From Paludibacteraceae bacterium (lineage in GTDB: Bacteria; Bacteroidota; Bacteroidia; Bacteroidales; Paludibacteraceae), in NCBI GenBank assembly GCA_024401555.1, contig JAKSKV010000009.1, positions 38,240 through 102,239 of the forward strand: a stretch of 64,000 bases of DNA, read 5' to 3'. The stretch's first letter is position 1; each line of letters begins with the position of its first letter. Below the pieces are notes generated by a model. It did no database searches and was not told the DNA's origin. It saw nothing but the letters and a program-made list of their open reading frames with translations. The position numbers and the translations under genes are program-made. Shown one piece after another: positions 1,232 to 20,975 of the stretch.

Positions 1232-4159
1232 TTATTTCTTCATTATTTTTGTCGCTATTCCATTTGTCTTCAATACATAGAGACCGCTCTTCCAAGCCTC
1301 TCCAAGGGTAGTGGTTCCGTAGGCCTCGCCTCTTTCGATGATTTGGCCCATTGTATTGATCACTTCGTATTCTCCCTCTGCGGTGAAGGAGAAGCTCTCT
1401 TCGAATGGGTTAGGGTAGAGGGCGATCGTAGATGCTTCCACCTCCTCAGTAGCTGTTCCCTCGATCTTACAATCTGTATTGTCCACAAAACATTTCCATG
1501 TGCTTGAAGTGGCGTTCTCGGCTCTCTCTCCGTAGATGATACCCAATCCGACAGTACTCATATAGAATCGTCCGTAAGTGTTCCAGTCTCCGATGACGAA
1601 TTGTCCGTTACCAGGACCACCGAATTGATGTTCTTCGTCGTTGATTCTTAACCATTTCTTTCCGTAATCGTCAGAGATGTAAAGACCTGTTCCGTCATTG
1701 TTGGCGGCACCCCAGATATAGATGGCGTAGTCGCTATCTTTGCCTTTGCCGACGCCCACTGCGGTACAGCTGTTGACGCCCGCTACCTTTGAGAAACTCT
1801 CGCCGTGGTTGTCCGAGACGAACAAACCATTTCCGCTACCAGGAGCGTAGATCAAGCCCTCTTTGCCCGCAACGATGGCGATACGGCCGAAATCTCCGTT
1901 GCTGAGAGCTTGTGACTTGAAGGATACACCGTAGTCCGTACTTCTGTAGAAGGTGCCCTTACCGCCTGCATAGACGTATGCGTCGTTCTCTGGATCCACT
2001 TGGATGTGGGTAGCCTTGTCTGTACCGCTGATCTTGGTCCATGCGGAACCGTTGTTGTCAGAGTAGTAGATGCCAGACTCGCCTGGGCCAGGGATGATGA
2101 AGAATCTGTACTTGCCATTCACCTTGGCAATGGCGCACTTTCCTTCGTTGGATGGCAATAGACCACATTCATTGCAGTATGGATTGCGGTAGCTGTAGTC
2201 GGTACCGCCACTACATTTTTTCCATCCGTCGTGGCCACTCAAGGTGTAGTAGAAACCTGTATTGGCCATACGCATCATCACCTTAGGGTCCTTGCTGTAA
2301 TAGTTGATACCGCCGGAGGTTCCAGGCGCTGGGTTATGGATAGGAGCGAACTCGTGGATATCCTTGTGGATGAATCCGGTGTAGTCACCGATGACAGACA
2401 TGAGATCACCGCCAGGTACGCTGACCAAATCCAAGGCTACCGTCTCCTCCAATCCGTTCACATCAAAGTAGAAGGTTGGCTTGCCTTTGCACCAGATGTT
2501 GTTGCAGGTGAAGATACCGTTTCCGGAGGTTGTGGAGACTTTGTTGTCATCCGTTGGATCGAAACAGAGGCTGCCGCTCCAGTGGATCGCGTAACCAGGG
2601 ATCCATGTTACTCCATTGTTGGTGAGGGTCATATTGCTTTTCAAACAACGCCAGTTCTTTCCTCCATCTTCAGAGGTCCAGTAGATGTCTCCGTTGGCGC
2701 TGGAACCGTTATCCCATGCTTGCGGAATCCATGTGTTGTTGGTGGAAACCACCAATTTATTGGCATCCTTGGGAGAAACAGCCACGTCGCCTAATCCGTA
2801 TTGCTCACTTGGAGAGATGTTCTCCGCACTCTTGGTATTAGGATTGTATCGGTAAACGGCACCACTTGCTCCACCTACGCATGCGCTAGAGTAGGCGATG
2901 AGCAAATTTCCATCTGGATCCATCTTCATTCGGCATGGAACATATTTGGTCGGTAGTTGGGCGACCGCGTTCCAACTTGAACCTCCATCTTCCGACACAT
3001 ATACGTTGCTTGATCCTGTACGGGATATGCCGACGAATATTCTTTGCGTCTTGCCACCTGATTTTTTACTTCCGTCGAAAACGATGGCGGTAGTTCCGTT
3101 TTGGTCTGGTGTCGAGGCGTATTGTTTGTTTTCCCAACTAGGCCAATTGACACTGGAAGTATACACGCCTTTTAACGAAGAGACGGCGCTCCAGCTTTTT
3201 CCTCCGTTTTCACTCTTGATGAGTGGGTTGTTGGCACGGCCTCCGCAGTAGATGATGTCGCTATTGTTAGGATCCACAGCGATTCTCTCTCCACAGTTAC
3301 GTCCTTGGCCGTTTCCGTGCGCGAAGATTAGGGAGGTCACATCGGATGTGTTGAAAGTCTTTCCTCCATCCTTGGAGTACATGACCGCTGTCTTTTGTGC
3401 ACTGAAATATTGGCAACCGCCCAACATATAGATGTTGTTCTCGTTTTGTGGGTCGATGGCCAAGGCTTCGATACTCAACAGACCTTTGTCATCTTCCGAG
3501 ATAAAGTTGGTGATGGGTTTCCAAGAACAGTCAGCGTCGTTCCATTTGTAAGCGCCGCCCACATCAGTACGTGCGTATTTGGATTTGCCAGAGGCGATGA
3601 TGCCTGATACGAATCCACCACCACCGATGGCCAAATTGCCGTAAGAGTAAGGAATGTAGGAGGATGGATCTTTCGGCATGGAGGTGTTGCACTCCACTGC
3701 GTCATTTTTGTCGGATACGAAGCGGATGTTGTCGATATACATCATACCACTCTCGCCGCCCAAAGCGATCAAGACCTCGTCTTGACTTAGGTTTTGGTCT
3801 GTGAAGTCGTAATAGAGGGTTGTCCAAACGCGGGCTTTGGCGGTTTGGTAAAGATTTACTTTGGAATTGTTGGAGTAAGCTTTTACGGTAATGTCTGCGG
3901 GAGAGAGTACATCCACAGCCAAGAGTTGCGTGGCAATTTCAGATCCGCAGGCGAACGATGCGCCGCCGTAATTGGTGATCTCCATTTTTAGGCAATGCTC
4001 ACTGGTGTTTCCACATTGGTGTGGATTCTCAATGATACTTTTCTCCGTTCCCCATCCACCGGTAGGAAACTTGCCGTCTTCGAAATCGTACAGTGTCTTT
4101 GCGTTCGCACCAACTTGCGAGAGGGCGAGAAAGGCAATGATTGCATTTGTTTTTCTCAT
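1232..4159 (-). CDS. Secreted GH74 family xyloglucanase with T9SS sorting domain
   Basis: About 975 aa. Layout: signal peptide (residues 1-20, ending GANA), an N-terminal region starting LYDFEDGKFPTGGWG that resembles a carbohydrate-binding beta-sandwich, a GH74 double beta-propeller from about residue 170, and a C-terminal type A T9SS sorting domain beginning ALYPNPFEESF. GH74 hallmarks are IGGGGFVSGI, YARTDVGGAY (its Asp aligns with a family catalytic acid) and repeated BNR-like turns such as SEDGGSSW and SKDGGKTF. GH74 enzymes cleave xyloglucan endo or at the reducing end. I chose the ATG at 4159, not the longer frame from 4285, because a signal peptide follows at once and a -7 box lies at 4203-4210. 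The gene stands alone, with no SusCD pair nearby. Confidence 0.88.
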   Translation of the reverse strand: MRKTNAIIAFLALSQVGANAKTLYDFEDGKFPTGGWGTEKSIIENPHQCGNTSEHCLKMEITNYGGASFACGSEIATQLLAVDVLSPADITVKAYSNNSKVNLYQTAKARVWTTLYYDFTDQNLSQDEVLIALGGESGMMYIDNIRFVSDKNDAVECNTSMPKDPSSYIPYSYGNLAIGGGGFVSGIIASGKSKYARTDVGGAYKWNDADCSWKPITNFISEDDKGLLSIEALAIDPQNENNIYMLGGCQYFSAQKTAVMYSKDGGKTFNTSDVTSLIFAHGNGQGRNCGERIAVDPNNSDIIYCGGRANNPLIKSENGGKSWSAVSSLKGVYTSSVNWPSWENKQYASTPDQNGTTAIVFDGSKKSGGKTQRIFVGISRTGSSNVYVSEDGGSSWNAVAQLPTKYVPCRMKMDPDGNLLIAYSSACVGGASGAVYRYNPNTKSAENISPSEQYGLGDVAVSPKDANKLVVSTNNTWIPQAWDNGSSANGDIYWTSEDGGKNWRCLKSNMTLTNNGVTWIPGYAIHWSGSLCFDPTDDNKVSTTSGNGIFTCNNIWCKGKPTFYFDVNGLEETVALDLVSVPGGDLMSVIGDYTGFIHKDIHEFAPIHNPAPGTSGGINYYSKDPKVMMRMANTGFYYTLSGHDGWKKCSGGTDYSYRNPYCNECGLLPSNEGKCAIAKVNGKYRFFIIPGPGESGIYYSDNNGSAWTKISGTDKATHIQVDPENDAYVYAGGKGTFYRSTDYGVSFKSQALSNGDFGRIAIVAGKEGLIYAPGSGNGLFVSDNHGESFSKVAGVNSCTAVGVGKGKDSDYAIYIWGAANNDGTGLYISDDYGKKWLRINDEEHQFGGPGNGQFVIGDWNTYGRFYMSTVGLGIIYGERAENATSSTWKCFVDNTDCKIEGTATEEVEASTIALYPNPFEESFSFTAEGEYEVINTMGQIIERGEAYGTTTLGEAWKSGLYVLKTNGIATKIMKK

Positions 4160-4351: not shown

Positions 4352-4990
4352 ATGGGCAATCAAATGGATAAGGCAAAGAATAGAATTGAATTTGAAGAGC
4401 TGCTCCGTTCGACGCAGCGTGATGGCGTGGAAGATATGTTGGCATGGTTGAACGAGAATAATTTTTTTGAGGCGCCTGCCTCTTCCAATCACCATTTAAA
4501 TGTGGAGGGAGGTTTGGTGCAACACTCATTGAATACGTGTCATGCGGCATTGACCGTGTGGGAGGGAATGCAAAAGTTGGAACCATCGTTGGCCAACGAG
4601 GTGAGCCGTGACAATGTGATCATCGCCAGCTTGCTGCATGATGTATGTAAGACGGACATCTATTTCCGCTCCGTGAAGAAGAAAAAGAATGCCATAGGTG
4701 TCTGGGAAGATGTGGAGGGATATAAGGTTTCTTACAAAAATTTCCCTATGGGACATGGCGAAAAGTCTGTGATTCAGATTCTTTGCGCCGGTTTGGAATT
4801 GACGGAGGATGAGATGCTTGCCATTCGCTGGCACATGGGCGCTTGGGGCATCAATATGAATAGTTTTGAGGATGAGCGTTGTTACGATACCTCGCGTAAA
4901 CTCTATCCGTTGGTCTCTATCATTCAGGTGGCGGATGGTTTGGCTGCCTCTATTTTGGAACGTAGTAACACCGATTTGGATGAGTTGTAG
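4352..4990 (+). CDS. HD-domain phosphohydrolase-like protein
   Basis: 212 aa (208 if the second Met is used). A soluble HD-superfamily protein. Metal-binding positions are suggested by NHHLNVEGGLVQHS near residue 50, SLLHDVCKTD near residue 92 (the HD doublet) and MGHGEKS and IRWHMGAW further on. The C-terminal half is helical and the last residues repeat a DGLAASI pattern common in HD proteins. Such proteins hydrolyse nucleotides or related phosphoesters, but the substrate cannot be read from sequence. It is transcribed divergently from the GH74 gene and faces the convergent GSCFA gene. Confidence 0.75.
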   Translation: MGNQMDKAKNRIEFEELLRSTQRDGVEDMLAWLNENNFFEAPASSNHHLNVEGGLVQHSLNTCHAALTVWEGMQKLEPSLANEVSRDNVIIASLLHDVCKTDIYFRSVKKKKNAIGVWEDVEGYKVSYKNFPMGHGEKSVIQILCAGLELTEDEMLAIRWHMGAWGINMNSFEDERCYDTSRKLYPLVSIIQVADGLAASILERSNTDLDEL

Positions 4991-15501: not shown

Positions 15502-16419
15502 ATGAATGAAAATGAATTGGCGTCGGTGACACCAGACAGTTCTGTGGTGGACTCCGTAGTGGCGAATGTGTTGAATCCAGAAGCCGTGGCGAATGGAACC
15601 GCACAAGAGTTTATTAATGCAGCGTGTGCGAAGGGTGCGGATCTTGCGATGAATTTGGGATCCAGAATCCTTTTGGCGCTTGTTATCTTCTTCGTCGGAA
15701 AGTGGATCGTGAATAAGTTGAACAACCTTTTCGGAAAGATGATGGAAAAGAAGGAGGTTGAGGTCTCCTTGGCTTCGTTCTTGAAGAGTTTGGTGAAGAT
15801 TGTCTTGAACTTTATCTTGATCATCACGATCATTGGGGTATTGGGTATCGAGACCTCCTCTTTCGTGGCATTGTTCGCATCTGCTGGTGTTGCCATCGGT
15901 ATGGCATTGAGTGGTACTTTGCAGAACTTCGCGGGTGGTGTGATGATTCTCTTGTTCAAGCCTTTCAAGGTGGGTGATTTCGTTGAGGCGCAAGGCATTA
16001 TCGGTACGGTAAAAGAAATTCAGATTTTCTGCACCGTATTCAATACATTGGATAATAAGACTGTTATTGTTCCAAATGGTGGTTTGTCAACGGGTATCGT
16101 GACCAACTACTCCAAGGAGGAGAATCGTCGTGTCGATTGGGTTTTCAGCGTAGCATACGGTGACGATTACGATAAGGCTAAATCTGTGATTGAGGAGTTG
16201 TTGGCTGCTGATAAGCGTGTGTTGAAGGATCCAGAGCCATTCATCGCGTTGAATGCCTTGAATTGCAGTTCTGTGGATTTGGTAGTCCGTGCTTGGGTGA
16301 AGTCAGCCGATTATTGGGGTGTCTTCTTCGACATGAACGAGCAGGTTTATAAGAGCTTCTCAAAGCATGGCCTAAACATCCCATTCCCACAAATGGATGT
16401 CCATGTGATGAATCATTAA
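15502..16419 (+). CDS. Small-conductance mechanosensitive channel (MscS family)
   Basis: 305 aa, near the usual MscS length. After a Ser/Val-rich N-terminus come TM segments at about 48-70 and 90-115. The pore-lining TM3 (about 125-155) has the Ala/Gly pattern ASAGVAIGMALSGTLQNFAGG. The cytoplasmic beta domain opens with PFKVGDFVEAQGIIGTVKEI and has TVIVPNGGLSTGIVTNYS. It releases solutes on hypo-osmotic shock. A rho-independent terminator follows directly. Confidence 0.92.
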   Translation: MNENELASVTPDSSVVDSVVANVLNPEAVANGTAQEFINAACAKGADLAMNLGSRILLALVIFFVGKWIVNKLNNLFGKMMEKKEVEVSLASFLKSLVKIVLNFILIITIIGVLGIETSSFVALFASAGVAIGMALSGTLQNFAGGVMILLFKPFKVGDFVEAQGIIGTVKEIQIFCTVFNTLDNKTVIVPNGGLSTGIVTNYSKEENRRVDWVFSVAYGDDYDKAKSVIEELLAADKRVLKDPEPFIALNALNCSSVDLVVRAWVKSADYWGVFFDMNEQVYKSFSKHGLNIPFPQMDVHVMNH

Positions 16420-16441
16420 GAAACTGTTGATAAGACATTTG

Positions 16442-16475
16442 AAAGGCGTGGCAGGTTTGTCACGCCTTTTTTCTA
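16442..16475 (+). terminator. Rho-independent terminator after mscS
   Basis: AAAGGCGTG / CACGCCTTTT stem with a short loop followed by a T-run, 22 bases past the mscS stop. It separates mscS from the J-domain gene pair. Confidence 0.85.
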
Positions 16476-16481
16476 CCTTTG
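16474..16481 (+). promoter_or_regulatory. -7 box of the tandem J-domain genes
   Basis: TACCTTTG, 31 bases upstream of the ATG at 16513 and directly after the mscS terminator. No well-spaced -33 TTTG is seen. Confidence 0.5.
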
Positions 16482-16512: not shown

Positions 16513-18501
16513 ATGATGAACAAACTATTACAGACGATTATATCTATTTCCATATTGCTCTGCTATATGGGTTGCTACGCTGCAACGGAAAAGTTGTATG
16601 GTGTCACCTACGATAACAACGGAAATGTATTGGAAAATGTCTCCATCGCGGTGAATGGTGAATGGGTGGATAAGAGCGATGAGAAGGGAGCCTATTCCTT
16701 GCCCTTTAATTTCATAAACCGTTCCGCTGACCCTGATCTTGATAACCATTTTTACACGGTTGTCACTTATGGGAAAAAAGGATATATCGACTTTTATAAG
16801 TCCGTTAGATATCCTTTCCCCGATGAATGTAATGTCTCTCTTGTCTCGGAATCCATGTGTGAGCCCATTCCTAGTTTTGATGCCTCTCAAGGTTTCCATT
16901 ACGAATCTGAGCGGAGTGGGGTTCGGATAACCATTCCTGATTATTCTTTCGACTATCAGGAGGAGGGGCGATTCTATACGGGGCGGGTGAACGCCAAGGT
17001 GTATGTGGCCAAAACATTAGCTCCATTCACCAATATTATTCCTTATGGTAATGTGTATCGTGATTTTGGAGGAAAGTGTGGTAATTACATTGGGGTGTTT
17101 TATGTCCGATTCTATGCGGAGGATTCAAAGGAACTACTGCTTAGAAAAGAGATATACGTTACGCTTCCTTCCGAGAGGAGTGGTTATGCAGTCCTCTCGC
17201 ACTTTGACAAGGATCTGATGACGTGGCGATACAAAGGACCTGTGGAGTATGACCATGTAGACTTCTCGTATGATATGAGATTGAAGCAAACAGGTCTATA
17301 TAGTTGCAACCGATATAAAGGGGAGGTTTTTCGAGAATATGCCTATTATTTGAATGGTCAGGATAACAAACCATTGTCGCATGGTGTGCTGAAGGTGCAA
17401 TATAATAATGCTACCGCTTATTCCTATGCGAACAAGGATGGGAAAGGCATGTTTTATCTTCCTTTTGGTTATAACACCTCCCCAAGTTCATTCAATGTTG
17501 AGTTCGCCGGTATTCAATTTGAACAGTTAGATTCGCATGAAAAAAAATCCATAGAATGCTTTGTGCATCCTGCCGAATTGGAGAGGGTGATCCGTCGTTA
17601 TGGAGAGGTAAAGTTTTATGAGACACGATTGGACGGCTATTTGCCTCCAGAGGGGTCTGTTTGTCGTCTTGTGGTGAAATATTCCCTTGACTCTTTGTTG
17701 ATTGCGTGCTCACAGTTCGAGCGAAAACAGTTGGGGTGGATGATTCTTAATGGAGTGCTTGTTGTACTGCTCCTATGTGCATTGGTGTTGATTAGTCGTG
17801 ATAAATACAAAGAGTATGTGAGCAGTAAATATCGGTCTAGTGGGGGATTCGACAATGAACTCCGGTTGATTGCCCAGGTGTTGAAATTGAGTCCCGGATT
17901 CTCTGATAGGCAGAAAGAGTTGATCGTTAAATATAGGGAGCTGCGGTGCCCATGTTGGTTTAAATGGGGAGAGAAAGAATTGAATGCTAGAACTATTGAG
18001 ATTGTCGATAAGTATAGATGGGTTATTATATCGGTATCGGATAGGAATGACTTGATTAGTCATCTGAATAAGACCCTCACTGGCAATGCTCCCCTTAACT
18101 TGGTCCATCTGCTCTTCAAATTGGCGATAGAGGATGATGGCATTAAGCGTGAAGAATGGGACGTGTTGAACCGAATCATGGTTGACTTGAAGCTTAGTCA
18201 GAAGAATGTGGATTTCATGAAACGCTATTATGGTCCGCTTCGTACCGAATTTGAGGAGTCCGAAAAACGTGATCAGTCAAGTGAAAAACGAGCTGTGCCA
18301 TCGGAGGATGTAACGCTTACGGCGGAATACACCTTGCTGGGCATCCCTGTCGGATCCTCCAAAGAGGAGATAAAGCGTGCCTACCGTCAATTGGCTTTGG
18401 AGTACCATCCAGATCTTCCGAAAAACGCCACTCGCCATACGGAGTGTGTGCGTAAGATGGCGGAGATCAATTTGGCGTATGATCGTTTGATGAAGGGGTA
18501 G
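16513..18501 (+). CDS. Transmembrane J-domain protein A (exported region, TM, helical domain, J domain)
   Basis: 662 aa. Residues 1-24 are a signal peptide. About 27-110 looks like a carboxypeptidase-regulatory or CNA-B-like beta-sandwich (YDNNGNVLENVSIAVNG, then KSDEKGAYSLPF). About 110-400 is further exported beta-rich sequence. One membrane helix lies at about 407-428, followed by a basic RDKYKEY. About 440-590 is helical with FKLAIEDDGIKREEWDVLNRIM, reminiscent of the acidic repeat of TerB/DjlA. The last 58 residues (from about 604) are a J domain with HPD near 631-633. The predicted topology puts the J domain in the cytoplasm, where it could stimulate DnaK. This resembles DjlA with a large periplasmic domain added. 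A paralogue follows 12 bp downstream. The domain chain is not a family I can name. Confidence 0.8.
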   Translation: MMNKLLQTIISISILLCYMGCYAATEKLYGVTYDNNGNVLENVSIAVNGEWVDKSDEKGAYSLPFNFINRSADPDLDNHFYTVVTYGKKGYIDFYKSVRYPFPDECNVSLVSESMCEPIPSFDASQGFHYESERSGVRITIPDYSFDYQEEGRFYTGRVNAKVYVAKTLAPFTNIIPYGNVYRDFGGKCGNYIGVFYVRFYAEDSKELLLRKEIYVTLPSERSGYAVLSHFDKDLMTWRYKGPVEYDHVDFSYDMRLKQTGLYSCNRYKGEVFREYAYYLNGQDNKPLSHGVLKVQYNNATAYSYANKDGKGMFYLPFGYNTSPSSFNVEFAGIQFEQLDSHEKKSIECFVHPAELERVIRRYGEVKFYETRLDGYLPPEGSVCRLVVKYSLDSLLIACSQFERKQLGWMILNGVLVVLLLCALVLISRDKYKEYVSSKYRSSGGFDNELRLIAQVLKLSPGFSDRQKELIVKYRELRCPCWFKWGEKELNARTIEIVDKYRWVIISVSDRNDLISHLNKTLTGNAPLNLVHLLFKLAIEDDGIKREEWDVLNRIMVDLKLSQKNVDFMKRYYGPLRTEFEESEKRDQSSEKRAVPSEDVTLTAEYTLLGIPVGSSKEEIKRAYRQLALEYHPDLPKNATRHTECVRKMAEINLAYDRLMKG

Positions 18502-18513
18502 GAGATTTATTGT

Positions 18514-20472
18514 ATGAGAAAGTATATATTATCCATATTGTTGTTGTTCGTGGCACTTGGCCAAGGTTTTGCGAAAGAGGTACCTTTTACAGTGGTTTGT
18601 GGCTCTGTTTTATCTGGATGCTACGCCGTACAATCCGCAAGGGTTGAGTTCCAGGGATTTGAACCTTGTGAGACAGATAAGGATGGCCGATTCTGTACAA
18701 TGACTACCTCTGCTAACGGTGGCAAGGTGCGTGTGTCTAACCCAGACTATTGGACCTATTATTATTCTTCGGATGAGGAAATACACAATATTCATCTCGC
18801 CGGAGTAGATTGTGGTTATTATTATGATGATGGTTCTCCCTCTCCTAAATGTCCTGTAAGAGCCTACGAGTATGCATTTTCCGCAGAGGTAGGACTGATG
18901 GCGAATCGGGAGGGTATTAAGATTGAAATTCCTGCTGATGTGAATAGGTCTGGGGAAAGTAAAAAGGATCGTTTAATTGTGAGGATCGCTTCCCCTACAC
19001 GCTTTACCAATGTGCCCCCTGGTGGTTGGGAATATGAGGCTATGGGGGGTGAGAGCGTAGGTACTATAATGGCGTTCAATATAGTTCTCTACTCAGATGA
19101 TGAGTCTGATCGGAAAATACATCTAAGTATCGCAAGTGGTTTGGAAAGCGATTTGCCGGCAACGATTATGCGGTTTGATGAGAATGCTTTTAATTGGGAT
19201 CTTGTTACGTCTGCTGGTTCAAGGAATCGTCGTTATGATTTTGAATTAAGTGAACGGAATTTTAAAAAGTCTGCCTGGTATTGTTGTCATATATTCAAAG
19301 AACCGATCCGAAAAGTGAATCTATGTGTTAAGGATAAGTCTGGTTATGGAGTTCCAAATTCAAGATTTCGGATGAAGGGCATACGTCCAGCTACGATTTT
19401 GACTGATGAGAAGGGAAAAATCTTTTTCTACTTACCTCTTTCTTGTGAAGAATTGAATTTGGATTTTGAAGGTTGTTACTACTCATACATACTAGGTTCA
19501 ACAATAAATATTGTGAATTGGGTGATTGATCCTGATAGTGTGTGCTCTACTTCTCTTGGTTTCCTCAATTCTGAAAATAACGAAGATGCGTGGTTTGATA
19601 TATCCATCCCTGATCTTACTGTGAGACCTGATCTTACGGTGGGAGGAGAGCGTTCTTCTCAAATTTTAGATGATTTTGAAGAGGAGTCAGCGTCAACAAG
19701 TGAAAAGCTTCAAAACAAGGAGGATGAATCTCAACCGGAAATACATCCCTATATAGGCTCGAAACAATCTTGTCTAATTGCATTGGTATTGGTATCGGTT
19801 TTCGGTATTATAGTGCTTCGCTATTATGCAACTAAATTGCTCACCCCCAATACAAAAGGAATTCCATCTCTAATAGTTAGTGTATTGTCTCTCCATCCCA
19901 TTTTTTCTGAACGACAACAGGAATTGGTGAAAAATTATTTTGCCCAGAGTTCGTTGAAGAGTACAGGAAAATATCTTCAAACTATTAGAAATCTTATGGG
20001 AGAGAAGATAGATTTGGCGTCTGCTTTTGAGACTGTCAATAGAGATCTTAGTTTTACAGAGCGTCGTGTGTTCTTGCAGTTGCTGTTTAAATTGGCGGCA
20101 GATGACGATGGCATCAAAAATGATGAGTGGCAGTTGCTCAACGAAATCATGGTGGGCTTGAAGATGAACAAAGCAAACATAGATTACCTAATGCGCCGCT
20201 ATGCACCGCTACGAACTGAATTCGAAGATTTTGAACAGAGCAGTTATTCATCTAATTACAAAGAAACCTCTACCTACTCGTATGCCTCTTCTTCCGATTA
20301 TGAGTTGTTGGGAATTTCTGTTAGTTCTTCTCATGAAGAGGTTCAACGTGCCTACCACCGATTAGCCAAAGAATACCATCCAGACCTTCCTAAGAATGCG
20401 AATCGTCATGCGGAGTGTGTACGGAAGATGGCGGAGATCAATTTGGCGTATGATCGTTTGATGAAGGGGTAG
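18514..20472 (+). CDS. Transmembrane J-domain protein B (paralogue of the preceding gene)
   Basis: 652 aa with the same plan as its neighbour. Signal peptide 1-20. Exported beta-rich region with several Cys residues (CGSVLSGCYAVQSARVEFQG, DKDGRFCTM). An acidic Ser/Glu-rich linker at about 385-410, absent in A. TM at about 419-438. Helical domain with FKLAADDDGIKNDEWQLLNEIMVGLKM. J domain from about 594 with YHPDLPKNA. The exported halves are strongly diverged between the two proteins, while the cytoplasmic parts are clearly homologous and the last 48 nt are identical. The 12-bp spacing implies one transcript. Inference: two receptors with different external parts feed the same chaperone-recruiting output. 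Confidence 0.8.
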   Translation: MRKYILSILLLFVALGQGFAKEVPFTVVCGSVLSGCYAVQSARVEFQGFEPCETDKDGRFCTMTTSANGGKVRVSNPDYWTYYYSSDEEIHNIHLAGVDCGYYYDDGSPSPKCPVRAYEYAFSAEVGLMANREGIKIEIPADVNRSGESKKDRLIVRIASPTRFTNVPPGGWEYEAMGGESVGTIMAFNIVLYSDDESDRKIHLSIASGLESDLPATIMRFDENAFNWDLVTSAGSRNRRYDFELSERNFKKSAWYCCHIFKEPIRKVNLCVKDKSGYGVPNSRFRMKGIRPATILTDEKGKIFFYLPLSCEELNLDFEGCYYSYILGSTINIVNWVIDPDSVCSTSLGFLNSENNEDAWFDISIPDLTVRPDLTVGGERSSQILDDFEEESASTSEKLQNKEDESQPEIHPYIGSKQSCLIALVLVSVFGIIVLRYYATKLLTPNTKGIPSLIVSVLSLHPIFSERQQELVKNYFAQSSLKSTGKYLQTIRNLMGEKIDLASAFETVNRDLSFTERRVFLQLLFKLAADDDGIKNDEWQLLNEIMVGLKMNKANIDYLMRRYAPLRTEFEDFEQSSYSSNYKETSTYSYASSSDYELLGISVSSSHEEVQRAYHRLAKEYHPDLPKNANRHAECVRKMAEINLAYDRLMKG

Positions 20473-20975
20473 AGGGCTAGAAGCGTCCGTAGGACGCCAC
20501 TTCGCATAACCCCGTACATCGTAGCGAAGCGGGATGTGCGGGGCAGATGTGGTGTGATCTCTATCCGTAAGGCATAGTCACACTGTGTATCAGCTATACA
20601 TGAGCACGTGCGGGGGGCAGACAACATAGAGATACCCCATACTGCCGTCCGTAGGACGTTACATACATAACCCCGTACATCGGAGCGCAGCGGGATGTGC
20701 GGGGATTTGACATAAGGATGTATAGCGTGCTGCATACAGTATCTCCCCAAGCGTATCCACCTATTGATCTCCTATCTCCTCACGGTCCGTGGAAGTGTTT
20801 GCCCCACGCACGTCTCCGCAGCGTGCTATGTTGACTATGCGAGGTTATTGAGTTATGCTGATACTATCTCATAAGGTGTGTGTCTGTTTTGTCACCCACG
20901 CACGTCTTCGCTAACGCTACGACGTACATGGTTATGAAAATATCGTCCTTCGGACGTTATGTAGAGGGCAGCAAA
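20473..20975. repeat. Cluster of extragenic palindromic repeats
   Basis: A gene-free stretch. Copy 1 (20484-20543) and copy 2 (20646-20704) share CGTCCGTAGGACG, then ATAACCCCGTACATCG, a short variable loop, and AGCGGGATGTGCGGGG. The CCCCGTACATC and GATGTGCGGGG arms can pair into a hairpin. A third, partial palindrome, CGTCCTTCGGACG, lies at 20944-20956. CCCACGCACGTCT occurs at about 20803 and 20895. No ORF, transposase or tRNA is present. The pattern is that of a REP-like family which would be expected elsewhere in the genome. Confidence 0.7.

Follow-up and report, generated by a model that had tools for sequence, protein, structure and literature searches.

The 64,000-nucleotide (nt) stretch analysed here (the window; contig JAKSKV010000009.1, positions 38,240 to 102,239 of the forward strand) comes from a Paludibacteraceae bacterium of the gut and carries two adjacent genes, here called W1 and W2, for membrane proteins with a C-terminal J domain (J-proteins). 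Judged from their sequences, both are of the exported type within a large and lineage-restricted family of membrane proteins that resemble DjlA. The predicted order of their parts is well supported: a signal peptide is followed by about 390 exported residues, a membrane helix, a TerB-like region and the J domain. Probably, though by no means certainly, W1 and W2 act as DjlA-like co-chaperones at the inner membrane, where they recruit DnaK and are placed or gated by their periplasmic module.

Build of the two proteins

The genes and their predicted parts are as follows (aa, amino acids).

16513..18501, + strand: W1, gene for a 662-aa membrane J-protein (intact open reading frame; DnaJ E 4.6e-13)
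16513..16584, + strand: predicted signal peptide of W1, about residues 1-24, end approximate (hydrophobic segment 5-23)
16585..17739, + strand: exported part of W1, about residues 25-409 (related to that of W2; family profile related to J-less proteins)
17740..17796, + strand: membrane helix of W1, residues 410-428 (mean hydropathy 2.84; K/R after the helix)
17863..18252, + strand: TerB-like region of W1, about residues 451-580, with DDGIK at 18133-18147 (Pfam TerB 14.1 bits, below 24.4; profile comparison)
18328..18492, + strand: J domain of W1, residues 606-660, with HPD (residues 632-634) at 18406-18414 (Pfam DnaJ 49.5 bits)
18514..20472, + strand: W2, gene for a 652-aa membrane J-protein (intact open reading frame; DnaJ E 9.8e-12)
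18514..18573, + strand: predicted signal peptide of W2, about residues 1-20, end approximate (hydrophobic segment 5-23)
18574..19767, + strand: exported part of W2, about residues 21-418 (matched only by W2 itself and W1 in 200 genomes of the taxonomic family)
19768..19824, + strand: membrane helix of W2, residues 419-437 (mean hydropathy 2.36)
19870..20238, + strand: TerB-like region of W2, about residues 453-575, with DDGIK at 20104-20118 (Pfam TerB 19.7 bits, below 24.4; profile comparison)
20299..20463, + strand: J domain of W2, residues 596-650, with HPD (residues 622-624) at 20377-20385 (Pfam DnaJ 45.2 bits)

The J domains of both proteins exceed the PF00226 cut-off of 27.8 bits. An initial annotation made from the letters of the window had put the membrane helices near residues 407-428 and 419-438, and hydropathy places them at nearly the same positions. 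Over the first 15 residues beyond the helix, K/R outnumber D/E by 5 to 2 in W1 and by 2 to 0 in W2, which fits an inside C-terminus. The assignment of both as type I membrane J-proteins, with the exported module outside and the TerB-like and J parts inside, is thus supported. The annotated build holds in that a signal segment, a helix, the DDGIK motif and an HPD-bearing J domain are found in both proteins, while the beta-rich nature ascribed to the exterior is suggested indirectly, via homology to proteins bearing CarboxypepD_reg.

The region between helix and J domain may be described as a divergent TerB-like domain, a weak label that derives from profile comparison. Against a profile built from six TerB regions of the ordinary DjlA type, taken from the genus, a profile of 11 family members gave 96.8% in hhalign (E 2.3e-10), compared with 0.05% for the same 11-member profile against an unrelated one as negative control. 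Within the motif DDGIKxxEW, D-G-I and E-W are invariant across an 8-row and an 11-row alignment, and DGI[KRHY] is present in 87 of the 97 non-redundant complete members of the family described below. HPD was counted in 91 of the 97 by segment; in some at least of the six misses, the segment examined ends ahead of the J domain, and one of them, read whole, has HPD.

Family, distribution and exported modules

When the own genome was searched with W1, 14 matches came up. Eight complete members lie in the fetched regions. Besides W1 and W2, there is another exported-type tandem pair on contig C105, with proteins of 421 and 934 aa. Contig C77 carries two short two-helix proteins in tandem, and C88 and C57 hold one member each. 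Two ordinary DjlA-like proteins and DnaJ are also encoded. All 16 genomes of the genus match W1, with 2 to 27 matches each if ordinary J-proteins are counted in. With a family profile at E 1e-18, a threshold that admits single weaker relatives (a DjlA-like gene of the ordinary kind from the own genome among them), 30 of 200 genomes of the taxonomic family matched, from 5 of 33 genera. The best E value was below 1e-35 in 18 of these 30, all from three genera, and the count within a single genome reaches at least 16, the largest number scored. Beyond the taxonomic family, the own genome was the sole match both among 295 genomes sampled from the order (E 1e-18) and among 296 from the phylum (E 1e-15).

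A scan of genome contigs returned 257 relatives, the best 80 of which were kept as 77 loci. All of these loci are from metagenome-assembled genomes of Bacteroidales or Paludibacteraceae, several of them named for horse faeces, buffalo reticulum or goat omasum. The resulting set comprises 125 members, 119 of them complete and 97 both complete and non-redundant. Most are short and have no exported part: judged by hydropathy alone, two N-terminal helices are seen in 59 of the 97, one in 17, three in 7 and none in 2. The sequence of signal peptide, exported part and helix occurs in 7 members, and 5 have a long N-terminus with a late helix, two of which (the second C105 protein and the split L045) are likewise of exported type. 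The pair had been put forward as an unnamed build, and indeed no family model beyond the J domain is reached above its cut-off; the build is not unique to the pair, however, as relatives in other genera have it too. A phage or mobile origin was rejected: among phage records there was a single weak match, confined to the J part, and eight of nine weak matches among viral contigs were likewise confined to it. A more distant TerB-J subfamily was seen in four other genomes of the genus (L132, L133, L134, L139), with proteins of about 400-470 aa, helices near the N-terminus and arrays of 7 to 10 genes.

The ten exported-type rows cluster in a tree made quickly from 142 columns of 173 TerB-J domains: they require 3 changes compared with a mean of 9.8 after shuffling, a value so low that none of 500 shuffles matched it. 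W1, W2, L049 and L051 group together with a support of 96, as does the C105 pair with 90. A single origin of the exported type is possible, but this tree, with its few columns, does not prove it. L221, a further exported member of 880 aa that stands outside the tree, begins with a lipobox-like motif, as do several other exported-type members. The build is common to several genomes and has a recognisable core. Outside the own genome, each exported-type gene that was read stands singly, and the two tandem pairs of this type were seen in the own genome only.

W1 and W2 are identical at 21% of the 371 exported positions that align; identity rises to 47% beyond the helix and to 74% within the J domain, which bears out the earlier observation that the exported halves have diverged while the J ends are alike. 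A relation between the two exported halves can still be recognised (W1 132-336 with W2 130-323, E about 1e-8). That of W1 matches proteins in five other genomes of the genus at E 1.4e-6 to 6.2e-4 (6 of the 200 taxonomic-family genomes including its own). Three of these relatives, read whole (L135-L137), are J-less and have a lipobox-like start; in the two that were scanned, CarboxypepD_reg scores 51.3 and 64.2 bits, above its cut-off of 32.3. A profile of nine J-fused modules aligned with one of the three J-less modules at 98.1% in hhalign (E 1.1e-13). By this comparison, the exported module is homologous to that of the J-less, lipoprotein-like proteins. Two relatives with a J domain, L221 and L044, come nearer to CarboxypepD_reg than W1 and W2 (30.2 and 23.7 bits). 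Solved structures gave no relative: carboxypeptidase M (E 0.46) was the sole candidate in the PDB for the exported module, and histidyl-tRNA synthetase (E 0.48), taken as a chance match, that for the J-less module. Just before the helix, L221, L044, L049, L051 and both C105 genes have in common a membrane-near exported segment of the form V-x-D-x-Y-G ... L-x-x-E-F-x-G, which by eye is weak or absent in W1 and W2.

Likeness of the J ends

The similarity of the J ends had been read as the mark of one common output. Constraint may account for it in part, and the nucleotide sequences point to recombination as well. Nucleotide comparison of W1 and W2 revealed an identical terminal block.

18454..18501, + strand: terminal 48 nt of the W1 gene with the stop codon, same sequence as the end of the W2 gene
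20425..20472, + strand: terminal 48 nt of the W2 gene, counterpart with the same sequence as in W1

Upstream of this block, the silent sites of the pair have drifted. Overall, 51 of 96 degenerate codons are identical, and the genes end in a run of 13 identical ones (shuffling P 0.005). The same tendency is found throughout the family, since the C-terminal part is the more similar one in 28 of 29 adjacent tandem pairs, the exception being a truncated gene. Across 28 adjacent tandem pairs, amino-acid identity rises from 0.39 before TerB to 0.60 in TerB and 0.83 in the J domain. Codon identity at unchanged residues follows with 0.60, 0.64 and 0.80, where 0.38 is expected from codon usage, and is higher in the J domain than in the N-terminal part in 24 of the 28. 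When silent-site identity was computed by category on 61 proteins, it rose towards the J end within the same array (0.62, 0.67, 0.83; 27 pairs, not all independent, as some tandem loci come from near strains), whereas it was flat between different genomes (0.48, 0.46, 0.48; 400 pairs sampled) and between loci of the same genome (0.48, 0.49, 0.49; 153 pairs). Because J ends within arrays are alike at silent sites, which selection at the protein level does not explain, recombination is likely to act besides constraint; the pattern would be explained if the 3' ends underwent gene conversion or unequal crossing-over. This localised likeness is a warning against taking conserved J ends as a sign of function alone, and it marks out the 3' end of the gene as a site of recombination.

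The contig C88 of the own genome provides a related case. There, two further copies of the final 103-113 nt of a TerB-J gene stand alone as direct repeats in the same orientation.

L011:2536-2648, 3778-3890 and 4857-4969: copies of the C88 J end

Each lone copy bounds an unrelated gene, one for a radical SAM protein and the other for a 251-aa membrane protein. In a relative, the homologous locus (L059) shows just one J end; the two flanks are present (83% and 78% identity) and the inserts are missing, with the empty site at L059:7948-8063; hence, two insertions at C88 are the simplest reading. The end of the intact C88 gene now differs from that of the relative, while the lone copies end almost like it, a pattern that suggests, for this one locus, integration into the 3' end of a gene. 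A scan of the loci for J-only pieces (start after model position 60, E <1e-6) gave, besides the two of C88, hits only at the ends of stretches, and the 92-nt block preceding the lone J ends had no other match in the 16 genomes of the genus.

Gene context, proposed role and comparison with DjlA

W1 and W2 lie on the same strand (+) with a gap of 12 nt. Upstream of W1, a gene for an MscS-like channel (15502-16419) was found, whose best NCBIfam model, MscS, scores 219 bits and stays below its cut-off of 321. The intervening sequence contains a putative terminator.

16441..16470, + strand: hairpin of 13 pairs followed by a T run, likely terminator between the MscS-like gene and W1 (RNA fold)

Between hairpin and W1, the sequence TACCTTTG is located at 16474-16481, which we take to resemble the -7 box of Bacteroides. 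Because the terminator-like hairpin and this element precede W1, the two genes probably form a two-gene unit of their own, and a shared operon with the MscS-like gene is unlikely, given the hairpin in between. Speaking against a separate unit, the hairpin was missing from the output of an automatic scan, and the 118-nt stretch that contains it, folded as a whole, has a z score of only -1.11, 30 of 200 shuffles being equally good. A 35-nt direct repeat with two mismatches (20505-20539 and 20666-20700) lies downstream of W2 and occurs nowhere else in the window. The neighbours of the pair are the MscS-like channel gene and an unrelated protease-like gene; known defence genes are not among them. 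Beside some members of the family at other loci, the following genes were noted.

L126:1455-2465: Abi_2 gene within a broken array
L069:5936-8627: Dam-type methylase and DpnII after a five-gene array
L138:1607-2704: YhcG-type nuclease gene beside a family member

HPD-bearing J domains stimulate the ATPase of Hsp70 proteins, and a full-length DnaK match is present in 15 of the 16 genomes of the genus, as a single copy in 14. One genome with 88% completeness (G012) has no full DnaK, and another (G009) has a further partial HSP70 match of 837 aa. A second Hsp70 partner was not found in the own genome, where the sole other HSP70-family match is short and weak. In one genome (G007, contig C49), dnaK lies about 8 kilobases after a TerB-J array (L069 with L171); in the stretches around dnaK of G000, G004 and G015, no family gene was called.

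In the proposed mechanism, the HPD-bearing J domain would engage the single full-length DnaK of the own genome beside a membrane client, with the TerB-like region serving as a spacer or client adaptor. The exported module may bind a periplasmic partner and in this way decide where or when DnaK reaches the membrane. W1 and W2 would probably have different partners outside and DnaK in common. Tandem duplication probably enlarged the family in a small number of related genera, while recombination kept neighbouring J ends alike. For the exported module, placement is likelier than true gating. Several results weigh against this proposal. Signal peptides, helices and topology of W1 and W2 are assigned from hydropathy and flanking charge. 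In Pfam, DnaJ was recovered in both proteins, TerB (PF05099, cut-off 24.4 bits) was not reached by either (14.1 and 19.7 bits), and the exported parts matched no family, CarboxypepD_reg (PF13620) included. A PDB profile search with the TerB-like profile gave no TerB structure, just designed TIM barrels at E 0.06 to 3.2. Finally, no recurrent neighbour was found beside the exported-type genes read, and none of the neighbours names a client.

The exported module could also be a constant anchor at one envelope site that involves no sensing, which we hold to be a genuine possibility, if not the favoured one. Related modules in J-less, lipoprotein-like proteins and the lipobox-like start of several exported-type members would suit such an anchor, and DjlA itself acts by locating DnaK at the membrane, according to PMC11709261. 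Yet the exported halves of W1 and W2 differ strongly and are hardly found elsewhere, which is more than a common anchor would need. This divergence on top of similar inside halves is, in turn, what would be expected of true receptors, in which binding of an outside ligand alters the reach or activity of the inside J domain, so that the proteins are transmembrane switches signalling through DnaK. A sensor or receptor role of the exported half, as the initial annotation proposed, is one that we infer from sequence features, together with the presence of one full-length DnaK for many J-proteins and of two exported-type tandem pairs in the own genome. Since no conserved sensor fold, ligand or target is known, the likeness of the J ends is partly due to recombination and the exported half is missing in most relatives, we regard true receptors as rather doubtful. 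A wider version appears unlikely, namely a receptor family signalling through Hsp70 in which many exported inputs are set on one TerB-J output that recruits the sole DnaK, and in which the J-encoding 3' ends are recombination joints that place new inputs, even unrelated genes, beside the output. The joints are suggested because two insertions bounded by J ends lie beside a paralogous gene on C88 and are missing in the relative.

The restricted and variable arrays, and the Abi_2, DpnII and YhcG-type genes beside some members, might instead point to a role of the arrays in defence or against phages, with genes that diversify and work via DnaK. We consider such conflict genes improbable, as four proteins matched 0 PADLOC families at E values up to 0.1 and the window pair adjoins a channel and a protease-like gene rather than known defence genes; neighbours were, moreover, sampled at few loci. 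It is more improbable still that the exported half is a functionless chance fusion, kept or drifting. In favour of such a fusion, related modules are found in J-less proteins of the genus, and conservation of the exported halves is poor, but the build has a recognisable core in several genomes, falls into one tree cluster and is encoded by intact frames in both W1 and W2. Hence, recruitment of DnaK to the membrane by co-chaperones of the DjlA kind, placed or gated from the periplasm, is the reading preferred here.

In E. coli, a single membrane J-protein works with DnaK, and almost nothing of it lies outside. A lineage with many membrane J-proteins per DnaK, some of them with large exported modules, is naturally suited to testing whether events outside the inner membrane can steer Hsp70, and equally to examining the role of the TerB region between helix and J domain. 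Literature searches returned no description of this architecture, which may be listed in surveys of TerB or of bacterial J-proteins.

The closest known system is DjlA. E. coli DjlA, a class C J-protein, has according to PMC11709261 only a short periplasmic end and no specific client-binding domain, and its induction of Rcs requires the J domain, the membrane anchor, DnaK and GrpE. This agrees with the earlier statement that DjlA has the order of membrane helix, TerB and J domain without a large periplasmic module. Helix, TerB-type region (in W1 and W2 by profile comparison only) and C-terminal J domain follow in the same order as in the DjlA model NF006948, which is the best NCBIfam match of both proteins besides general J models and covers the second half of TerB and the J domain. 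Its equivalog cut-off of 162 bits is not reached, however (W1 48.6, W2 53.1), the first acidic motif of the DjlA-type TerB regions used for comparison is not evident by eye in W1 and W2, and about 390 exported residues stand against the short periplasmic end of DjlA. An ordinary DjlA is ruled out by this score and by the exported half. The short TerB-J membrane proteins of the tandem arrays have the same TerB-J end (42-54% identity to W2 for most rows of the 8-row alignment), but lack the exported half and carry 1-3 helices near the N-terminus. Conversely, the J-less lipoprotein-like proteins L135-L137 have the homologous exported module, but end without helix, TerB-like region or J domain. 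Taken together, W1 and W2 are best classed, on sequence grounds, as a variant of the DjlA kind inside a lineage-restricted expansion, and not as DjlA by the equivalog cut-off.

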